From assembly GCF_014696385.1 (NCBI RefSeq), contig NZ_JACJQB010000006.1, positions 62,001 through 126,000 of the forward strand: DNA of 64,000 nucleotides, given 5' to 3'. The notes under the pieces are model-generated. The model searched no databases. It saw nothing but the letters and a program-made list of their open reading frames with translations, and was not told the origin of the DNA. Position numbers and translations under genes: made by a program. This stretch comes from Pseudanabaena mucicola FACHB-723. GTDB lineage: Bacteria > Cyanobacteriota > Cyanobacteriia > Pseudanabaenales > Pseudanabaenaceae. This document shows, in pieces, positions 34,362 to 40,628 of this stretch; within the stretch, counting starts at the first letter, position 1; every line of letters starts with the position of its first letter.

Positions 34362-34745
34362 TTAGTATTCTCGAACGATAAATACTGGTGTACTGAATTT
34401 GGGTTGATTTTGCTTTTGGATACGGATTAGACGATCGCTAAGTTCTGTTGTCTGAGATTGCAAAAAGTCATTGATAAAGTTGGCTTGTCCCTGATAGTCA
34501 CGATCATCTTTACAAATAATGATGCCGCTATGATTCATGCCACTACGATGTAAATCGATAAAATCATCACGATTAAAAGTTATTAGAATTCGATTTTGAT
34601 TTGTGGCAAATTTTAGAACTTCAGGGTCGGGAATTCCTTGATTTGCTTGTCCTGCTTCGTAGGAGGTAAGTACATCATGCTCGTAATCGCGCAGGATTTG
34701 CACAATGTCGATCGCAAAGTTTTCGTTGGAATACAATCTAGCCAA
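34362..34745 (-). CDS. DUF5615 family PIN-like toxin
   Basis: 127 aa beginning MARLYSNENFAIDIVQILRD from a TTG at 34745 inside the end of the upstream gene; no nearer ATG gives the conserved N-terminus. The family pattern follows: H-D-V-L-T-S-Y-E-A-G-Q-A-N-Q-G-I-P-D, LKFATNQNRILITFNRDDF and G-I-I-I-C-K-D-D. Conserved acidic residues (Asn/Glu7, Asp in IPDPE, Asp-Asp in RDDF) fit a PIN-type RNase active site. It overlaps the DUF433 gene by 8 nt, the standard DUF433-DUF5615 toxin-antitoxin arrangement. Confidence 0.85.
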   Translation of the reverse strand: MARLYSNENFAIDIVQILRDYEHDVLTSYEAGQANQGIPDPEVLKFATNQNRILITFNRDDFIDLHRSGMNHSGIIICKDDRDYQGQANFINDFLQSQTTELSDRLIRIQKQNQPKFSTPVFIVREY

Positions 34746-35076
34746 TGATCGCTTCCTCTTGTTCGTATTGGTGAGAGGCGATCGCGTGATCGATTTCTTC
34801 TTGATGTGCAGTGTAATAGAATCGGGCGTTACTCAAATCGTCTGTGGTTAATGATGGGAAGTTGCGTAAAAGCTCTGGGGTATTGGCTCCTTGCTGTTGC
34901 AGTGAGATGATTGTCCAAACTGGAATGCGGGTATTGCGAATTCTTGCATGACCTCCACATACGCCGATGGTTTTCTGGATTGCGCGGGATTTTAGTTTTT
35001 CTTGCAATAGGGCATATTCTTCTGGTGCAAGGGATTCGATAACTTGGGCTAAGGATTCTACTAGTTTTGTATTCAT
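34738..35076 (-). CDS. DUF433 antitoxin of the DUF433-DUF5615 pair
   Basis: 112 aa. An N-terminal helix (SLAQVIESLAPEEYALLQEK) precedes the DUF433 domain: GVCGGHARIRNTRIPVWTII, GANTPELLRNFPSLTTDDLS and the closing Y-Y-x-x-H-x-x-E-I helix. DUF433 is a small winged-helix-like domain thought to neutralise the downstream PIN-like toxin and bind its own promoter. ATG 35076 overlaps the stop of a tiny upstream frame. Its homologous domain also occurs in the gene at 37792, but with a different partner. Confidence 0.83.
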   Translation of the reverse strand: MNTKLVESLAQVIESLAPEEYALLQEKLKSRAIQKTIGVCGGHARIRNTRIPVWTIISLQQQGANTPELLRNFPSLTTDDLSNARFYYTAHQEEIDHAIASHQYEQEEAIIG

Positions 35077-35162: not shown

Positions 35163-35164
35163 GC

Positions 35165-35311
35165 CTAATTCTCTGACAGTCCCATATCTGGCAAGCCTTT
35201 CAGGATTTTAACGGTTTCTAAGCTCAGAATAATGACTTGCTTAATCAATCTCACGATATAGATATATTTGATTTGGGTTTTGTCTTTGCTGGGGCGCATT
35301 TTTTCGACTCG
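35165..35311 (-). pseudogene. internally deleted second copy of the restriction gene C-terminus
   Basis: The 48 codons before TAG read RVEKMRPSKDKTQIKY, then IYIVRLIKQVIILSLETVK and ILKGLPDMGLSEN. They match two separate parts of the gene at 36000-37340: RVEKMRLSKDKTQIKY (36250-36305) and EYIVRLVKQVITVSLETVKI-type text to its end (36000-36095). About 50 codons between them are missing, without shifting the frame. The copy begins 5 nt after the HepT gene stop. Confidence 0.85.
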
Positions 35312-35316
35312 CTTAT

Positions 35317-35688
35317 TCAACAAATATCACTCCTAATCTTTGCTAATGTTTGCTTGAGACACTCTAGTTCAAAAGCACATATCGTATAAACTTCCTCATG
35401 ATCGGCATCAAAATAAGCATGAGCCAAAATATTTCTAATTCCTTTAACCTCTCCCCAATTAACATCAGGATATTTATTAAGTGTACCCTTGCCAATAATT
35501 TTGTCAATTCTGCAAATATTTTCACTAATAGCAATCAACATCATATTGATGCCATCTAAGCGGTCTAGTCCATCATCATCACGAATAAAATCGTCTGGCT
35601 CTTTAATTCCATTAAAACGCCTCTCAATCCTTCTGATTGCCTCATCAATTTCTAAAAATAGTTTCAAAAGATCTACTTGTTCACGCAT
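35317..35688 (-). CDS. hepT: HepT-like HEPN toxin (DUF86)
   Basis: 123 aa, all helical. The HEPN active motif is R-N-I-L-A-H-A-Y (R-X4-H-X-Y), near residue 92, with the Tyr that partner MntA proteins adenylylate in characterised systems. The N-terminus MREQVDLLKLFLEIDEAIRR and the loop DDDGLDRLDGINMMLIAISE are typical of DUF86. It is an RNase toxin paired with the nucleotidyltransferase gene upstream, overlapping it by 8 nt. Both genes lie between the intact and deleted copies of the restriction gene end. Confidence 0.85.
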   Translation of the reverse strand: MREQVDLLKLFLEIDEAIRRIERRFNGIKEPDDFIRDDDGLDRLDGINMMLIAISENICRIDKIIGKGTLNKYPDVNWGEVKGIRNILAHAYFDADHEEVYTICAFELECLKQTLAKIRSDIC

Positions 35689-35983
35689 AAATAGCCTCCC
35701 TATCGATTTCTGATTTTAGATAAGGATTCATGCTCTTGCGATAGCGAATAACATCAACTTCTTTGTCAAATAATCTCTCTAACTCCTGTTTAAGCCCAAC
35801 TCGCTTTAACATATTTGGTTCCATTTCTACAACAATATCAATATCGCTTTCTTCAGTGGCTTCATTTCTTGCTACTGAACCAAAGATACCGATCTTAGTG
35901 ACTTTATAGCGATCGCGTAGTTTTAACTTCAAACCGCGCAACTCATTTAATATATACTCTCTATCTAGTGAATTTGTAATCAT
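35681..35983 (-). CDS. mntA: MntA-like minimal nucleotidyltransferase antitoxin
   Basis: 100 aa. The nucleotidyltransferase motif is G-S-V-A-R-N-E-A-T-E-E-S-D-I-D (GSX10DXD), followed by I-V-V-E-M carrying the third acidic residue. In characterised MntA-HepT systems this enzyme transfers AMP to the toxin Tyr and silences it. Length and the C-terminal helix (ELERLFDKEVDVIRYR) are normal. ATG 35983 lies 16 nt after the stop of the recognition-domain gene, so all these genes are probably on one transcript. Confidence 0.85.
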   Translation of the reverse strand: MITNSLDREYILNELRGLKLKLRDRYKVTKIGIFGSVARNEATEESDIDIVVEMEPNMLKRVGLKQELERLFDKEVDVIRYRKSMNPYLKSEIDREAIYA

Positions 35984-35999
35984 TGGTTTACATTTCTCC

Positions 36000-37340
36000 C
36001 TAATCTTTTGGTAATCCTAAATCTGGTAGACCTTTCACAATTTTAACGGTTTCTAAGCTGACGGTGATTACTTGCTTAACCAGTCTCACGATGTATTCTT
36101 CGTCATCAAGGCGATTAGGATCGTTGGTGATGCCGCTTCGTTTGTCGGTGCTGACTTGGTATTGATCGATGATCCAGTCTAGGGCGGAACGGTTGCCTAG
36201 TTTGTATTCAAAGGTTTCTGGGGGAATACCTGTGAGGGTTAGGAAGTCGTTATATTTGATTTGGGTTTTGTCTTTGCTGAGGCGCATTTTTTCGACTCGC
36301 CAATCAATTGGGAGATCTTTGTTTTCGATATGTTTGAGGCGATATTCGGGTTGTTGTTCGTAGTTGATATGGATTTCGGTGAGGCGTTTTCCTGCGATCG
36401 CAAAGGGATGAAACTCTGGTGCGAAGGGGATGCGCGGTAGTTCGCGTTTGAGGTTGGCGGCGTAGCGTTGACGATAGTGGGGATGATGGAGTAGGGCGTA
36501 GGTGTAATGGAAGATGTCCCATTTGGTAATTTTGGGATCTTGATAATGGGTTTGGAATTGTTCTAATGCCCAATCAGTAATGTTTTCGCGGCGGTTATTT
36601 CCATCTTCATCATAAGTGTAGAAAGGAAAGCATTGAGTTTGATCTATTGACGTTAAAGATAAATTTGTAATCAAATTAGAGATAAAACTCCAAAATTTAG
36701 TTCTTCCGCCTGCTCCCGGCACAGAAATAATTAAATTCTCTACTTCTGATTGATGATTAGGATAAATTAATGGGAACAGCCCACGACGATCATTTATAAC
36801 TTCATCAAAATACATGAATTGCTTGCAGAATGGACGAGACAAAGCACTTCTAATTTGATCAGAATTAAATTTATGCAGATCACCTCTTTTTAACCATGTT
36901 TTGAGAGTACTGCTCCAACTGATTTTTGTGTCATCATAAATTATAAAATCATCAATGTTTAATGATTTTGATTCTTGTTGATTCCATCGACTGACTTGGA
37001 TGTTGTATGCCTCAACTGTTGTTTTAATGTTTGCTGATAAATCATTAGAAGTAAAACTATATACCCAAGCATCACGATTAGTTTTTACCCCGTTGCTAAA
37101 AATCTTAAAAATACAATCGGTTACATCTACCTTTGACGCTTTAGATTCTTTGCTTCCCAAGGCAATAAAGCTATCAAAATCATCCTCAAATCCTTCTGTT
37201 AGCCAAACATATTTTTTATCTGGTTTAATTTCTTGCCAATCAACATCTTGAAGATTCTCAAACTTCTCCAAACAACTTAACTTCTGTTCCTTGCGCCAAA
37301 ACTCATCCATCCGCGCATAATAAATCTTAGCCTTTCTCAT
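36000..37340 (-). CDS. C-terminal (target-recognition) part of a split Type IIG-like restriction-modification enzyme
   Basis: 446 aa without nuclease or methyltransferase motifs. It begins MRKAKIYYARMDEFWRKEQK, which in intact single-chain enzymes of this class follows directly after the methyltransferase domain. The rest (FYTYDEDGNNRRENITDWAL, YTYALLHHPHYRQRYAANLK, PETFEYKLGNRSALDWIIDQ) is the recognition domain and its C-terminal helices common to Type ISP/IIG enzymes. ATG overlaps the HicB-like stop (ATGA), suggesting coupled translation. Together with the gene at 38235 it would give about 1028 aa, near full length. No frameshift is seen in either part, so activity as two chains is possible. 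Confidence 0.85.
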   Translation of the reverse strand: MRKAKIYYARMDEFWRKEQKLSCLEKFENLQDVDWQEIKPDKKYVWLTEGFEDDFDSFIALGSKESKASKVDVTDCIFKIFSNGVKTNRDAWVYSFTSNDLSANIKTTVEAYNIQVSRWNQQESKSLNIDDFIIYDDTKISWSSTLKTWLKRGDLHKFNSDQIRSALSRPFCKQFMYFDEVINDRRGLFPLIYPNHQSEVENLIISVPGAGGRTKFWSFISNLITNLSLTSIDQTQCFPFYTYDEDGNNRRENITDWALEQFQTHYQDPKITKWDIFHYTYALLHHPHYRQRYAANLKRELPRIPFAPEFHPFAIAGKRLTEIHINYEQQPEYRLKHIENKDLPIDWRVEKMRLSKDKTQIKYNDFLTLTGIPPETFEYKLGNRSALDWIIDQYQVSTDKRSGITNDPNRLDDEEYIVRLVKQVITVSLETVKIVKGLPDLGLPKD

Positions 37341-37525
37341 AGATTTTCTTGATTTGATTGGTCAGCAATAACTCGTAAAGCTAAAGCTTGCACATTTGCG
37401 ATCGCCTGTTGTTGACTATTCCCATAAACTAAAATGCCAGCAATTTCGAGGATTTCAGCAATCCAGCGACCATCTTCTTCTTGTTCTGTTTCAATAGTGA
37501 AATGATTGGAAATATGTTGTGTCAT
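37337..37525 (-). CDS. HicB-like protein without a HicA partner
   Basis: 62 aa. HFTIETEQEEDGRWIAEILE, then GILVYGNSQQQAIANVQALA, is the short HicB antitoxin fold (partial RNase H-like). HicB is normally next to the small dsRBD-like toxin HicA; none is visible here. It lies 10 nt after the RelE-like gene and overlaps the start of the recognition-domain gene by 4 nt. It may act as an accessory antitoxin or simply as a coupling cistron; both are inference. Confidence 0.8.
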   Translation of the reverse strand: MTQHISNHFTIETEQEEDGRWIAEILEIAGILVYGNSQQQAIANVQALALRVIADQSNQENL

Positions 37526-37535
37526 ATTGTTTTCC

Positions 37536-37811
37536 TTAATAAATATCTCCCCTAAAATCTATCGCATAAATGAGTAATTCATTTTGTTCAAAATCAATTG
37601 CATATATCACTCTAATTTTCCCAACCCTTAGCCTTGAGAAGCCATCCCAAGAACCTTTTAATGGCTTGACATCAAGTTCTTTAGAAATAATTGAATCTGG
37701 CTTTTCTGCTAAATCAAGTAAATAGAGGATTTTAGTCTTGATCTTTTCGCTATCTTTGGGCGGAATCTTTTCAAGAAACTTAATCGCACTTTTACTTAAA
37801 ACTAGTTTCAT
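37536..37811 (-). CDS. RelE/ParE-superfamily toxin-like protein
   Basis: 91 aa. The family fold is clear: KSAIKFLEKIPPKDSEKIKT helices, then VKPLKGSWDGFSRLRVGKIR and VIYAIDFEQNELLIYAIDFR, the central sheet with Arg residues that RelE-type mRNA interferases use. Length is normal, and no disruption is seen. Its start overlaps the upstream DUF433/RelB-like gene by 20 nt, the normal antitoxin-toxin layout, which supports pairing of these two. Confidence 0.85.
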   Translation of the reverse strand: MKLVLSKSAIKFLEKIPPKDSEKIKTKILYLLDLAEKPDSIISKELDVKPLKGSWDGFSRLRVGKIRVIYAIDFEQNELLIYAIDFRGDIY

Positions 37812-38220
37812 TTCTCACCCAATCTGTCATATCTACAAATTCGGCTCTATCATAATCAGATGGCGAACCAAAATGCTCCTCAATATCCGCCTGTTCCTCA
37901 TCACTGACACAAGGGGTCTGAGAGAATATAAAAGCAAATTTCTCTTTTCTCAAAACCTCATTCATCGTCTCTTGGACAGTCTGTTGAACAACTTCTTTGA
38001 GTCCTTGAGTCTCTAGATTTACTCTTAATGTCGTAGCCGCATACTGTAGAACCTCTTGTATGTCCGCTGCTTCTAAATCAGGCAATGCCTGTAAGATTTC
38101 TTGATCTCGCATTCCATCCGCAAACATATCAAAGACAGTTGTAACAGGTATTCTCAAAGAGCGAATACAGGGGACACCACCCATCTTTTGAGGATTAGTT
38201 GTAATTCTCGCAAATTGCAT
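37792..38220 (-). CDS. chimeric antitoxin: DUF433 domain joined to a RelB-like tail
   Basis: 142 aa. Residues 1-72 are a canonical DUF433 domain (KMGGVPCIRSLRIPVTTVFD, MRDQEILQALPDLEAADIQE). After a helical linker (about 73-95), the tail FIFSQTPCVSDEEQADIEEH, then EFVDMTDWVRNE, resembles the toxin-wrapping end of cyanobacterial RelE-associated antitoxins. DUF433 usually partners a DUF5615 toxin, but the downstream overlapping gene encodes a RelE-like toxin. AGAGG overlapping the stop of the methyltransferase gene is the ribosome site, 11 nt before ATG 38220. Confidence 0.75.
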   Translation of the reverse strand: MQFARITTNPQKMGGVPCIRSLRIPVTTVFDMFADGMRDQEILQALPDLEAADIQEVLQYAATTLRVNLETQGLKEVVQQTVQETMNEVLRKEKFAFIFSQTPCVSDEEQADIEEHFGSPSDYDRAEFVDMTDWVRNETSFK

Positions 38221-38234
38221 AGTTGATTTAACCT

Positions 38235-39995
38235 CTAACGCTTTCTTACAAAAATATTAACACTTACCCCAACTTGAATACCAAAAACATTATGAGTTGT
38301 TCCCGATAATTTAGGATTCTTGCGAATATTTCCGCCTAAATCAAATACATAGATTTGATCAAACTCCTGTTCTAAATATTGGCGCATCCCATCAAACGCA
38401 ATCCCATCAATAAAACTGTTGTTAGTCACAAACGCAACCACTCCTTCATCACCAATTCTATCCGATGCCCACCGAATTGCTTTTACGTAGGGATCAGAAA
38501 GAGAGTTTTTTAAAGTCGCTTTTGAAGCTTTGGCATAGGTAGCCGCTACGCGATCATCAATCCCCGTCTTGTTTTTAGTCGTGTACTTACGATTCTTATT
38601 GTTATCATTCTCATTCAACTGACCCACATTATACGGAGGATTCCCAATCACCACAAACAAATCTGACTCCCTTTGTCTTTCCACCCGTTTCATATTCTCA
38701 GGTGTAAACAAACCCAACTGCTCAATACGCTGATCCTCAAACGTATCTACTAAACAAATCCCCTCAAACGCCTCATACTTCCCAGTTTGCTCAAAATACT
38801 CATGCTCAATATTCATCGATGCAATGTAATAAGGCAGCAACATCACCTCATTGCAATGCAACTCATGCTCATACTTGTGAGGCAAAGCCGACTTCTGGAT
38901 TTCCGCAATCTCGCGCATCACCCGCATGATGAAATTCCCCGTACCCACAAACGGATCGAGAATATGCACACCCTTATCCACCAGAGACTTACCAAACTCC
39001 CGTTGCAAAATCTCCTCCACACTCTTCACCATGAAATTCACAATCGGCTGTGGTGTATACACAATCCCATGCGTATCCGCCACCTTTGTCGAAAAGCCCT
39101 GAAAGAACTTCTCATAGACCGTATTCAAAAAGTCCTGCTTTTGCGAAAAATCATCAATTGTTGCTGCTGTTTCTTCGATCGCCCCATAAAACCGATCCAA
39201 ACTACTCAAAAAATGAGCGCGGCTGAAATGCTTAGAGGTCAAAGCATTGATCACCTTCTCAATCTCAACCGCAATAATATTTCTCTGAGCAAAATCAGGA
39301 TTATTGAACACACTCCGAAAAATCCGTTCCGTTAGCAAATGCTGAATCAACATCTCCTCAACCGCTGACTCCGCCAGATTGGGATTAATCGACTGACGGC
39401 AAAGCTGCATAAACGCTGCAAACGCATCGATAAACTTTTTGTTCGTCTTTTCCTGTGTGCGAATTAGCTCCAGTAAAGCCGTAGCATGATCCTTCACGCG
39501 ATCGCCAAATTCCTCAGCCGCCTTCTCCCATTGTGCGATCGCAGGCGCACGATATTCAAAAAACTGGCGCACCACGTCCACCAATTCCTGCTCTTTGGTA
39601 ATGTCCACATCCATTACCAACTTGCCATCCTGATAAAGAATGGCGCGATCGGGCTGCTGAAAAATAATATTGTCTTTGGGATAGCCCACCGCAAACTTTT
39701 TCTGAACTTCCTTCTTCAGATCGTCCTTGCTATCCTTTGCTTCCCAATAAGCACGCGGCAAATGATAAATATCTACTAATGCCCCATCAATGCGAATTGG
39801 TTGTTTTTGCGATCGCTTAATTGCAAATTGCTGCTCTAAAGTCCACTCAAACTGCCGCCCACAGGACTCTAGCAACTGCTGAAAAGCCGACAACACTGCG
39901 CCCTCATGCACTATGCCCAACTTGCCATAGCGATCCAAAGCTTCATAGTAATTCTTGATTGGCTTGTGCGATGGCTTAAGGCTGAGACTAGGCAT
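38235..39995 (-). CDS. N-terminal (nuclease and adenine methyltransferase) part of a split Type IIG-like restriction-modification enzyme
   Basis: 586 aa. Residues 55-90 hold a PD-(D/E)XK-type nuclease pattern: R-I-D70-G-A and Y-W-E85-A-K87. A helical spacer follows (about 140-300). The N6-adenine methyltransferase has GIVYTPQPIVNFMV near 310, motif I D-P-F-V-G-T-G-N-F at 347-355 and motif IV N-P-P-Y at 452-455. The chain ends VGVSVNIFVRKR, where intact enzymes continue into the target-recognition domain; here that domain is a separate gene at 36000. There is no helicase, so Type IIG fits better than full Type ISP. The catalytic motifs are intact. Confidence 0.88.
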   Translation of the reverse strand: MPSLSLKPSHKPIKNYYEALDRYGKLGIVHEGAVLSAFQQLLESCGRQFEWTLEQQFAIKRSQKQPIRIDGALVDIYHLPRAYWEAKDSKDDLKKEVQKKFAVGYPKDNIIFQQPDRAILYQDGKLVMDVDITKEQELVDVVRQFFEYRAPAIAQWEKAAEEFGDRVKDHATALLELIRTQEKTNKKFIDAFAAFMQLCRQSINPNLAESAVEEMLIQHLLTERIFRSVFNNPDFAQRNIIAVEIEKVINALTSKHFSRAHFLSSLDRFYGAIEETAATIDDFSQKQDFLNTVYEKFFQGFSTKVADTHGIVYTPQPIVNFMVKSVEEILQREFGKSLVDKGVHILDPFVGTGNFIMRVMREIAEIQKSALPHKYEHELHCNEVMLLPYYIASMNIEHEYFEQTGKYEAFEGICLVDTFEDQRIEQLGLFTPENMKRVERQRESDLFVVIGNPPYNVGQLNENDNNKNRKYTTKNKTGIDDRVAATYAKASKATLKNSLSDPYVKAIRWASDRIGDEGVVAFVTNNSFIDGIAFDGMRQYLEQEFDQIYVFDLGGNIRKNPKLSGTTHNVFGIQVGVSVNIFVRKR

Positions 39996-40006: not shown

Positions 40007-40159
40007 ATGAAATTTTTTGGCAATAACATTACTATAAATGAATTTAGAAAGATCGAGAAAAACAGGGCTGAAATAGTTGTTTTACAAATACCAGAAGCAT
40101 TATACCAACGCCTAGCGATTCCGTATTGCATCACTTCACTCCAACAGCCTCAAACTTAG
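40007..40159 (+). pseudogene. N-terminal fragment of an antitoxin-like gene
   Basis: 50 codons on the plus strand. The stretch AEIVVLQIPEALYQRLA resembles the start of a cyanobacterial antitoxin-like family that reads V-L-x-I-P-[DE]-A-L-Y-Q-R-L. After that the sequence runs into the 3' end of xisI in antisense and stops. It looks like the head of a gene cut off by a junction. ATG 40007 lies 11 bp from the divergent methyltransferase gene start. Confidence 0.45.
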
Positions 40160-40454
40160 GCAGAAATGCAAGATCAATATCATTCTGAGGAATTCCCCTT
40201 TGAATCAAATCTTGAGTGATCCCTCCCTCAATTCCATCATACTCAATTAGAACCTTCCCATCCTTAATACTCACATAAATCAAATTACCCCGCACCCGTC
40301 TCTCCCGATCCCAACCAAACTGCATCAGCGCATAGCGACTATTCACATCATCAAATATCGGTTCCAAGTGAATATTGCCATGAGAAGGACGCAACTTAGC
40401 ATACTCACTAATTACCTGCTTGATTACTGCTTGATAGGATTTGACGGTATCCAT
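40131..40454 (-). CDS. xisI: XisI family protein (fdxN element excision controlling factor-like)
   Basis: 107 aa, near normal. The family order is seen: VKSYQAVIKQVISEYAKLRP, EPIFDDVNSRYALMQFGWDR, RRVRGNLIYVSIKDGKVLIE, YDGIEGGITQDLIQRGIPQN and IDLAFLPKF. In heterocystous strains XisH and XisI are needed for excision of the fdxN element with XisF, but most cyanobacterial copies have no such element nearby. AAGGAG is the ribosome site and overlaps the stop of the truncated xisH frame upstream, so the two were built as a coupled pair. Confidence 0.88.
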   Translation of the reverse strand: MDTVKSYQAVIKQVISEYAKLRPSHGNIHLEPIFDDVNSRYALMQFGWDRERRVRGNLIYVSIKDGKVLIEYDGIEGGITQDLIQRGIPQNDIDLAFLPKFEAVGVK

Positions 40455-40466
40455 TGAGTTATCTCC

Positions 40467-40628
40467 TTAGTGCTTAGATTTACAAACACCGATAAAGCCA
40501 CTTGCCGCAAGATCGACAAACAAAAAGCGATCGACATAGGAAATAACATAGGGATCGTCAGTCACTTCCCATCCATCTTTAATAACTGCTTCTTTTACAG
40601 CCTCATGAATGGAGTCTCTAACTGGCAA
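40467..40628 (-). pseudogene. xisH: truncated xisH
   Basis: 53 codons from TTG 40628, with GGAG 9-12 nt before it. The peptide MPVRDSIHEAVKEAVIKDGW, then FLFVDLAASGFIGVCKSKH, is the N-terminal part of XisH (normally near 138 aa). The later part with the nuclease-like E-x-K and the core strands is absent, and the stop TAA sits in the ribosome site of xisI. Either a deletion joined an early stop to the xisI leader or the remainder was never included. Confidence 0.75.

Follow-up and report, generated by a model that had tools for sequence, protein, structure and literature searches.

A putative two-chain form of a DrdV-like Type IIG restriction enzyme with toxin–antitoxin genes at its methylase–recognition junction in Pseudanabaena

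A stretch of 64,000 nt from Pseudanabaena mucicola FACHB-723 (contig NZ_JACJQB010000006.1, positions 62,001–126,000), hereafter called the window, carries a restriction–modification (R-M) locus in which a nuclease–methylase gene and a specificity gene are separated by small toxin–antitoxin (TA)-type genes. All five open reading frames (ORFs) lie on the minus strand, and positions are those of the window. The first gene (38235–39995, –) encodes the 586-residue RM chain, P0001, which combines a PD-ExK-type nuclease, a helical coupler, and a gamma N6-adenine methyltransferase and ends inside the linker between the methylase (M) and specificity (S) modules. Its Pfam domains are ISP_coupler (PF22240, beginning at residue 156) and N6_Mtase (PF02384), and its motifs comprise a nuclease-like D...EAK at the N-terminus (RIDGALVD...YWEAKD), DPFVGTGNF, and NPPY. 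The last gene (36000–37340, –) encodes the 446-residue S chain, P0002, whose sole Pfam match is Type_ISP_C (PF18135, E 7e-102) and which consists of a probable docking segment (residues 1–50), a hypervariable recognition core (residues 76–265), and a conserved C-terminal part (residues 266–446). Between the two lie a chimeric antitoxin-type gene (142 aa; 37792–38220, –), a RelE/ParE-type toxin gene (91 aa; 37536–37811, –), and a truncated, orphan HicB-like gene (62 aa; 37337–37525, –), whose stop codon overlaps the start of the S gene by 4 nt (ATGA). The layout given in the original prediction, with split RM and recognition halves, three co-directional small genes between them, and no frameshift, holds at these positions; the genes touch or overlap as it stated, with junctions of +14, –20, +10, and –4 nt, except that the first gap is 14 nt and not 15.

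Both chains find their best structural match in one and the same polypeptide, DrdV (Protein Data Bank entry 7LO5), with P0001 aligning to residues 18–577 and P0002 to residues 587–1025. In PADLOC, both chains likewise match the same Type IIG models consecutively (PDLC03621 at 21–584 and 592–1012); P0002 also aligns to LlaGI and LlaBIII. A variable linker joins the two modules in fused relatives (e.g., VGVSINLFVRNKNGQNSKPAQIYYARVDELWRKEEK). In the window, the RM chain ends with VGVSVNIFVRKR and a stop codon after residue 586, and the S chain starts 0.9 kb farther on with ATG-RKAKIYYARMDEFWRKEQK. Among 38 fused enzymes, 326 alignment columns are conserved in 90% or more of the sequences, and the two window chains together retain 322 of these columns, which rules out the loss of an essential segment at the junction; the sole segment absent at the cut is the variable linker of 5 to 9 residues. 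The cut had been described as lying exactly between the methyltransferase and the recognition domain, and this is accurate for the sequence modules but not for the domain border seen in crystals. The crystallographic core of the target recognition domain (TRD) of LlaBIII starts at residue 1205 (PMC4872093), and residue 5 of P0002 corresponds to LlaBIII residue 1156, which places the cut approximately 50 residues ahead of that core. Predicted alone, P0002 adopts a stable fold (pLDDT 88.9, pTM 0.86) with a TM of approximately 0.8 to the recognition regions of DrdV, LlaGI, and LlaBIII. The first approximately 50 residues of this model are the least sure, as would be expected if they dock on the methylase, which they probably do. 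An AlphaFold model of a fused relative, of middling quality (pLDDT 74, pTM 0.50), places a coil at the junction, flanked by a strand on either side.

Scanning bacterial genomes yielded 80 relatives, and more came from searches of cyanobacterial genomes. Intact single-chain homologs, which the original prediction presupposed, exist and are the rule: among 139 scored loci (L numbers below), 99 are fused, 31 are split at this point, and nine are partial, proportions that are no frequencies because the loci were picked by similarity to the window and include some duplicates. With the fused form this common, the alternative that the two chains are always encoded separately is ruled out. An even sample of 386 cyanobacterial genomes contained approximately 54 homologous places, mostly fused, with clean splits in G000, G087, G280, G060, and G241. 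The split occurs in several cyanobacteria of the clade of the window and in a second cyanobacterial clade of approximately 40% identity (clade B), with single cases in Chloroflexota (L028) and Acidobacteriota (L058), and mapping the split label onto a tree built from the methylase half requires at least 9–11 changes. Other genomes thus carry the same split, as had been anticipated, and judged from its recurrence at the same point in several lineages, the arrangement is no accident of one genome. Because the fused forms in the tree span many phyla, we take the fused state to be ancestral. Two clade B loci (L149 and L152) are split without any inserted gene. An insertion sequence was considered as the splitting agent, which holds for L018 and L161 only. 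The plasmid relatives of Geminocystis (pGM04) and Rhizobium (p6) are fused, with no intermediate among them, and the viral collection contained one relative, at 47%.

The genome of the window itself contains a second split enzyme, of clade B, at L176:5348–6469 together with L175 (the ends of C89 and C11), which is interrupted by the contig end and has DUF4258 and MqsA-like genes between M and S. One relative (G395) has two split systems, L162 and L177, with ParD–ParE and DUF433–DUF5615 genes, respectively, and different S chains. The S proteins of clade B (L149, L151, L152, L157, and L158) contain approximately 160–230 extra residues, in frame, at the position of P0002 residues 266/271; a second split inside S at this position was considered for clade B and rejected, since the feature is really an in-frame insertion within one ORF.

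Purifying selection acts on both halves. The ratio of nonsynonymous to synonymous substitution rates (dN/dS) is 0.005–0.10 for M and 0.06–0.5 for S among split pairs, compared with 0.08–0.23 for M and 0.23–0.40 for S among fused pairs, the S values being raised by exchange of the recognition core. These ratios, together with the conserved columns, rule out a pseudogene or frameshift reading of the window, in which both halves look functional by these measures. Decay is likewise not the state of L001, L002, L007, L008, L010, L011, L014, L015, and L016. The TA genes have dN/dS values of 0.02–0.30 (0.08–0.14 for the chimeric antitoxin gene of the window and, among near relatives, 0.05–0.14 for the RelE gene).

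The genes occupying the junction are diverse. In the clade of the window, Pfam assigned them to DUF433, RelE/ParE, HicA, ParD-like, DUF5615, DUF6883, DUF4926, MNT/HepT, and XisH/XisI families, and clade B junctions hold DUF2281 with PIN, DUF4258 with an MqsA-like gene, or, in L158, an HNH gene. The GxxExxY-type PDDEXK_3 gene of L028 and the Uma2 and HicB-like genes of L058 count as accessory genes and not as clear TA pairs. HicB-type genes of the kind found in the window have no significant Pfam match and owe their name to their HicA partners and to the HicB-type matches of L007 and L058; MNT/HepT of L012 and XisI of L144 were named by similarity to the window proteins P0006, P0007, and P0010 and not by a scan of their own. 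Split loci have 80 TA-like stretches at their junctions, of which 79 are co-directional, whereas none was found inside M at any locus. Given this co-directionality and the splitting at the same point in several lineages, the placement of TA genes at the junction is better than chance. The S gene starts exactly 4 nt inside the preceding small gene (ATGA) in 12 of the 25 scored loci, and this recurrent overlap fits translational coupling of S to the small gene upstream. At L144:6194–7744 (oriented with M on the plus strand), the S chain has a complete HicA joined in frame to its N-terminus, for a total of 516 aa, and the neighboring methylase is broken.

The first small gene of the window, previously called DUF433/RelB-like, turned out to be a chimera of a DUF433 head and a RelE-partner antitoxin tail. 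Residues 1–66 share 70% identity with a free-standing DUF433 gene whose partner is DUF5615, and residues 69–142 are 57% identical to an antitoxin that stands alone before RelE elsewhere; the fusion apparently arose by deletion between neighboring TA pairs. Over residues 1–56, the HicB-like protein shares 91% identity with a HicB of 74 aa that is paired with HicA in relatives, and its final residues resemble the tail of the missing HicA; DUF7387 is below the cut-off, and no Pfam match is significant. The RelE toxin and the tail of the chimeric protein form the sole complete pair in which a toxin stands beside its own antitoxin, whereas HicB lacks HicA and the DUF433 head lacks DUF5615 in the junction. 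Judged by gene content, the TA cassette of the window is eroded, with the RelE pair complete. Consensus scans for a promoter or terminator within the junction performed no better than shuffles. No signature of site-specific insertion was found, in that the left edges share no common motif and the last two to six codons of M vary with the cassette. The locus has no inverted repeats, the only repeat being a direct one of the S end, and no recombinase-like ORF was seen by inspection of 33–43 kb of the window.

Comparison with close relatives indicates that parts of the locus have been exchanged separately. The window is 93–100% identical to these relatives in M and 96–98% identical in S residues 266–446, but only 41–63% identical in S residues 76–265. 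The fused locus L005 is 98% identical over M residues 1–283 and 93% identical over the S C-terminus but differs from M residue 541 to S residue 265, which implies that the split or fused state is transferred with the recognition module. L001 and L162, in contrast, are 99% identical in M and 95% identical in S and have DUF433–RelE and ParD–ParE junctions, respectively, which implies that TA genes are also exchanged alone. Remnants of M or S ends stand beside cassettes in L008, L011, L015, L144, and the window, and in L012, S-tail sequence recognizable by eye precedes the MNT gene. We read these remnants as traces of repeated duplication and replacement.

The remnant in the window (35164–35312, –) comes from the 3′-end of a second S gene and has lost an internal segment; it matches the S gene over 50 nt at 98% and over 97 nt at 77%. 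It lies behind an MntA-type MNT nucleotidyltransferase gene that follows S (35681–35983, –; PF01909, PF18765) and its partner, a HepT-like HEPN gene (35317–35688, –; PF01934), and on these matches it is the trace of a former tandem S cassette. Farther on are a DUF433 antitoxin-type gene (34738–35076, –) and a DUF5615 PIN-like toxin gene (34362–34745, –), both assigned by Pfam. Upstream of the RM gene is an XisI-type gene (40131–40454, –; PF08869), which is associated with the system without necessarily being part of it. Within 40131–40628 (–), XisI is intact, and the adjoining XisH gene looks broken; in related loci, XisH/XisI genes stand upstream of M, between M and S, or after S.

The explanation that we consider probable is that the locus encodes a DrdV-like Type IIG enzyme in two-chain (RM + S) form, with an M/S junction that receives TA genes. 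A single-chain ancestor would have been cut in the short linker between methylase and recognition module, and the two products would re-associate noncovalently into a single bifunctional enzyme, with the S chain picking the site for methylation or cleavage. The cut would create a permissive site that accommodates small TA-type genes while leaving the enzyme functional; such genes would enter, be swapped, and be lost there, and homologous recombination in the conserved flanks (the M core and the S C-terminus) would swap the recognition core. The TA genes would mainly stabilize, or hitch-hike on, this exchangeable junction rather than regulate restriction. The fission, the retention of conserved residues, the purifying selection, the independent exchange of TA genes and recognition core, and the frequent 4-nt overlap can be read directly from the compared sequences. 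Separate catalytic and specificity chains, as originally proposed, are the best reading of the homologs, conserved columns, and selection, with the co-action of the two chains being inferred. A more far-reaching version, in which cutting at the methylase–recognition border is a recurrent adaptive step that turns the enzyme into a cassette platform, with S exchanged alone or with TA genes, S production coupled to the TA gene just upstream, and specificity and TA content evolving as one exchangeable unit, is a tentative idea that we hold to be less probable than its opposite.

Several observations weigh against the two-chain explanation. Related loci are broken in S (L009, L012, L013, and L143) or in M (L144, L145, and L146), in L003 the reading frame breaks close to the M start, and S is frameshifted in the second split locus of the same genome. 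In addition, the tree counts changes and carries no direction, and the fused relatives within the clade of the window have a different recognition module, so that the step from fused to split is not caught at the nucleotide level.

These broken loci, a large minority of the related split loci, could also mean that a selfish TA insertion broke the enzyme, which is now on its way out; the insertion-sequence interruptions in L018, L143, L158, and L161 and the S-end remnants around the locus point in the same direction. Such decay is hard to reconcile with the very low dN/dS of M, the fused-like dN/dS of S at substantial dS between split relatives, the conserved catalytic motifs, the precision of the cut, which spares the conserved residues, and the persistence of the same intact layout in different genera, and we regard it as improbable. 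We are equally reserved about a layered defense, in which the small toxins would be a fall-back released when a phage blocks the restriction enzyme, in the manner of PrrC and EcoprrI. R-M operons are frequently accompanied by HEPN and TA-type RNases (PMC3710099), and the toxins at these loci are of RelE, HicA, PIN, and HepT types. PrrC, however, is one dedicated partner, whereas the junction toxins belong to numerous unrelated families, are freely replaced, and bring antitoxins of their own, which makes direct inhibition by the enzyme unlikely.

The remaining alternatives, which correspond to the punished loss of the island and the gated restriction suggested in the original prediction, assign the TA genes a role in the exchange or the expression of the enzyme. 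Cells that lose the TA pair during specificity exchange might be poisoned, or excision might be suppressed, roles that have been either proposed or demonstrated for the Phd-Doc-type tvrAT genes of the pneumococcal tvr locus. The TA genes do lie between recombining flanks, are under purifying selection, and are strongly concentrated and co-directional at the junction, and in tvr, TA genes lie between hsdM and hsdR among hsdS cassettes (PMC6265443). We nevertheless consider this addiction or anti-shuffling role doubtful, although it is the least improbable of these rivals: the window locus has yielded no recombinase gene and no inverted repeats, toxins have been lost in several copies including the window, the R-M genes of L013 have decayed beside intact TA genes, and addiction as such was not confirmed in tvr itself. 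Alternatively, restriction could be gated, with S made only if the upstream TA gene is translated, such that TA autoregulation or antitoxin turnover sets the amount of S and switches restriction. R-M genes are often under the control of small proteins or translational coupling (review, PMC12707154), and the exact overlap with S follows many different upstream genes and is kept in the window despite the deletion of HicA. Tight overlaps are, however, ordinary in bacterial operons, the promoter signal is not above chance, L149 and L152 are split without a TA gene, spacing is loose (20–80 nt) in L001, L002, L007, L008, and L028, and near-identical enzymes carry freely differing TA families. We think gating by TA translation, for which the ATGA overlap is the one feature that speaks, unlikely. 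The exchange, erosion, or absence of TA genes where M and S are conserved (L001 versus L162; L149 and L152; the orphan HicB and DUF433 of the window) argues against a dedicated regulatory dependence on any one TA pair.

The two-chain reading can be placed among known systems by domain order. DrdV (7LO5/7LVV) has the same order of nuclease, helical connector, adenine methylase, and recognition region, and both window chains align to it nearly over their full length, with homology across all four parts. DrdV is, however, one chain of 1029 residues, whereas in the window the activities are not joined in one polypeptide but divided over two ORFs with three small genes between them. The Type ISP enzymes LlaGI and LlaBIII (5FFJ, 4XQK) have a homologous coupler, methylase, and PF18135 region in a single chain, but Type ISP enzymes have a helicase-like ATPase between nuclease and coupler; P0001 has no helicase domain, so the window enzyme is not Type ISP. 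Type IIB enzymes such as BcgI and BsaXI resemble the window in having an RM and a separate S chain, a class that also occurs as RMS fusions (PMC11997821). The Type IIB S chain is a Methylase_S protein with two TRDs, whereas the S chain of the window has PF18135 only, and the passages of that source considered here mention no TA genes between RM and S. Type I enzymes have an HsdR translocase and Methylase_S-type HsdM/HsdS, features that the window enzyme lacks. The tvr locus of Streptococcus pneumoniae (SpnIV Type I R-M; PMC6265443) likewise has TA-type genes among exchangeable recognition cassettes between R-M genes, and the main measured effect of its Phd-Doc-type genes is suppression of excision (PMC6265443); tvr, however, encodes a Type I enzyme without a single-chain split and has a tyrosine recombinase and repeats, and no recombinase was found at the window locus. 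EcoprrI–PrrC also has a toxin-type gene embedded in an R-M locus, but PrrC is a dedicated anticodon nuclease under control of the R-M complex, in contrast to the exchangeable TA pairs of the window.

The closest parallel in gene order comes from Type I loci of Pseudanabaena and relatives (L209–L228), where hsdM stands directly beside hsdS in three of the 19 loci inspected, as judged by ORF size and position. Their hsdM–hsdS junctions are usually filled with TA, ATPase, Uma2, GxxExxY, or XisH/XisI-like genes. Ten intervening genes were tested, of which five were TA-type (one DUF2281, three PIN, and one FitA-like RHH), one was MNT, and four had no clear family. In Synechocystis, the pSYSG island has TA modules in or near Type I R-M genes (PMC4963859). 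The cyanobacterial hsdM–TA–hsdS layout is the same as that of the window, but hsdM and hsdS were separate from the start, whereas the window enzyme needed cutting. Because Type I junctions in the genus hold TA and accessory genes, the split enzyme would have taken on a layout already present there. The converse step, an M–S fusion of EcoKI, stays active (PMC3510504, PMC6158711). Neither a split PF18135-type enzyme nor TA genes within such an enzyme turned up in the open-access literature, the scope of our search (subscription papers and REBASE lie outside it). The statement in the original prediction that it knew of no described system with this layout is roughly right for this enzyme family in open-access papers, but there are close parallels in the hsdM–hsdS junctions with TA or accessory genes, pneumococcal tvr, and the RM + S organization of Type IIB.

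If the two chains act together as proposed, these loci would document, as a natural and recurrent event, that a Type IIG enzyme can give up its single-chain form, be made as an RM chain plus a free specificity chain, and remain functional, which is relevant to models of R-M evolution and to the engineering of specificity. They also present a case in which a single, defined position within a host gene is occupied by TA genes that are swapped there. The question of whether TA genes stabilize, regulate, or hitch-hike on R-M loci thereby becomes directly testable in natural pairs, such as L001 and L162, whose main difference is the TA cassette.

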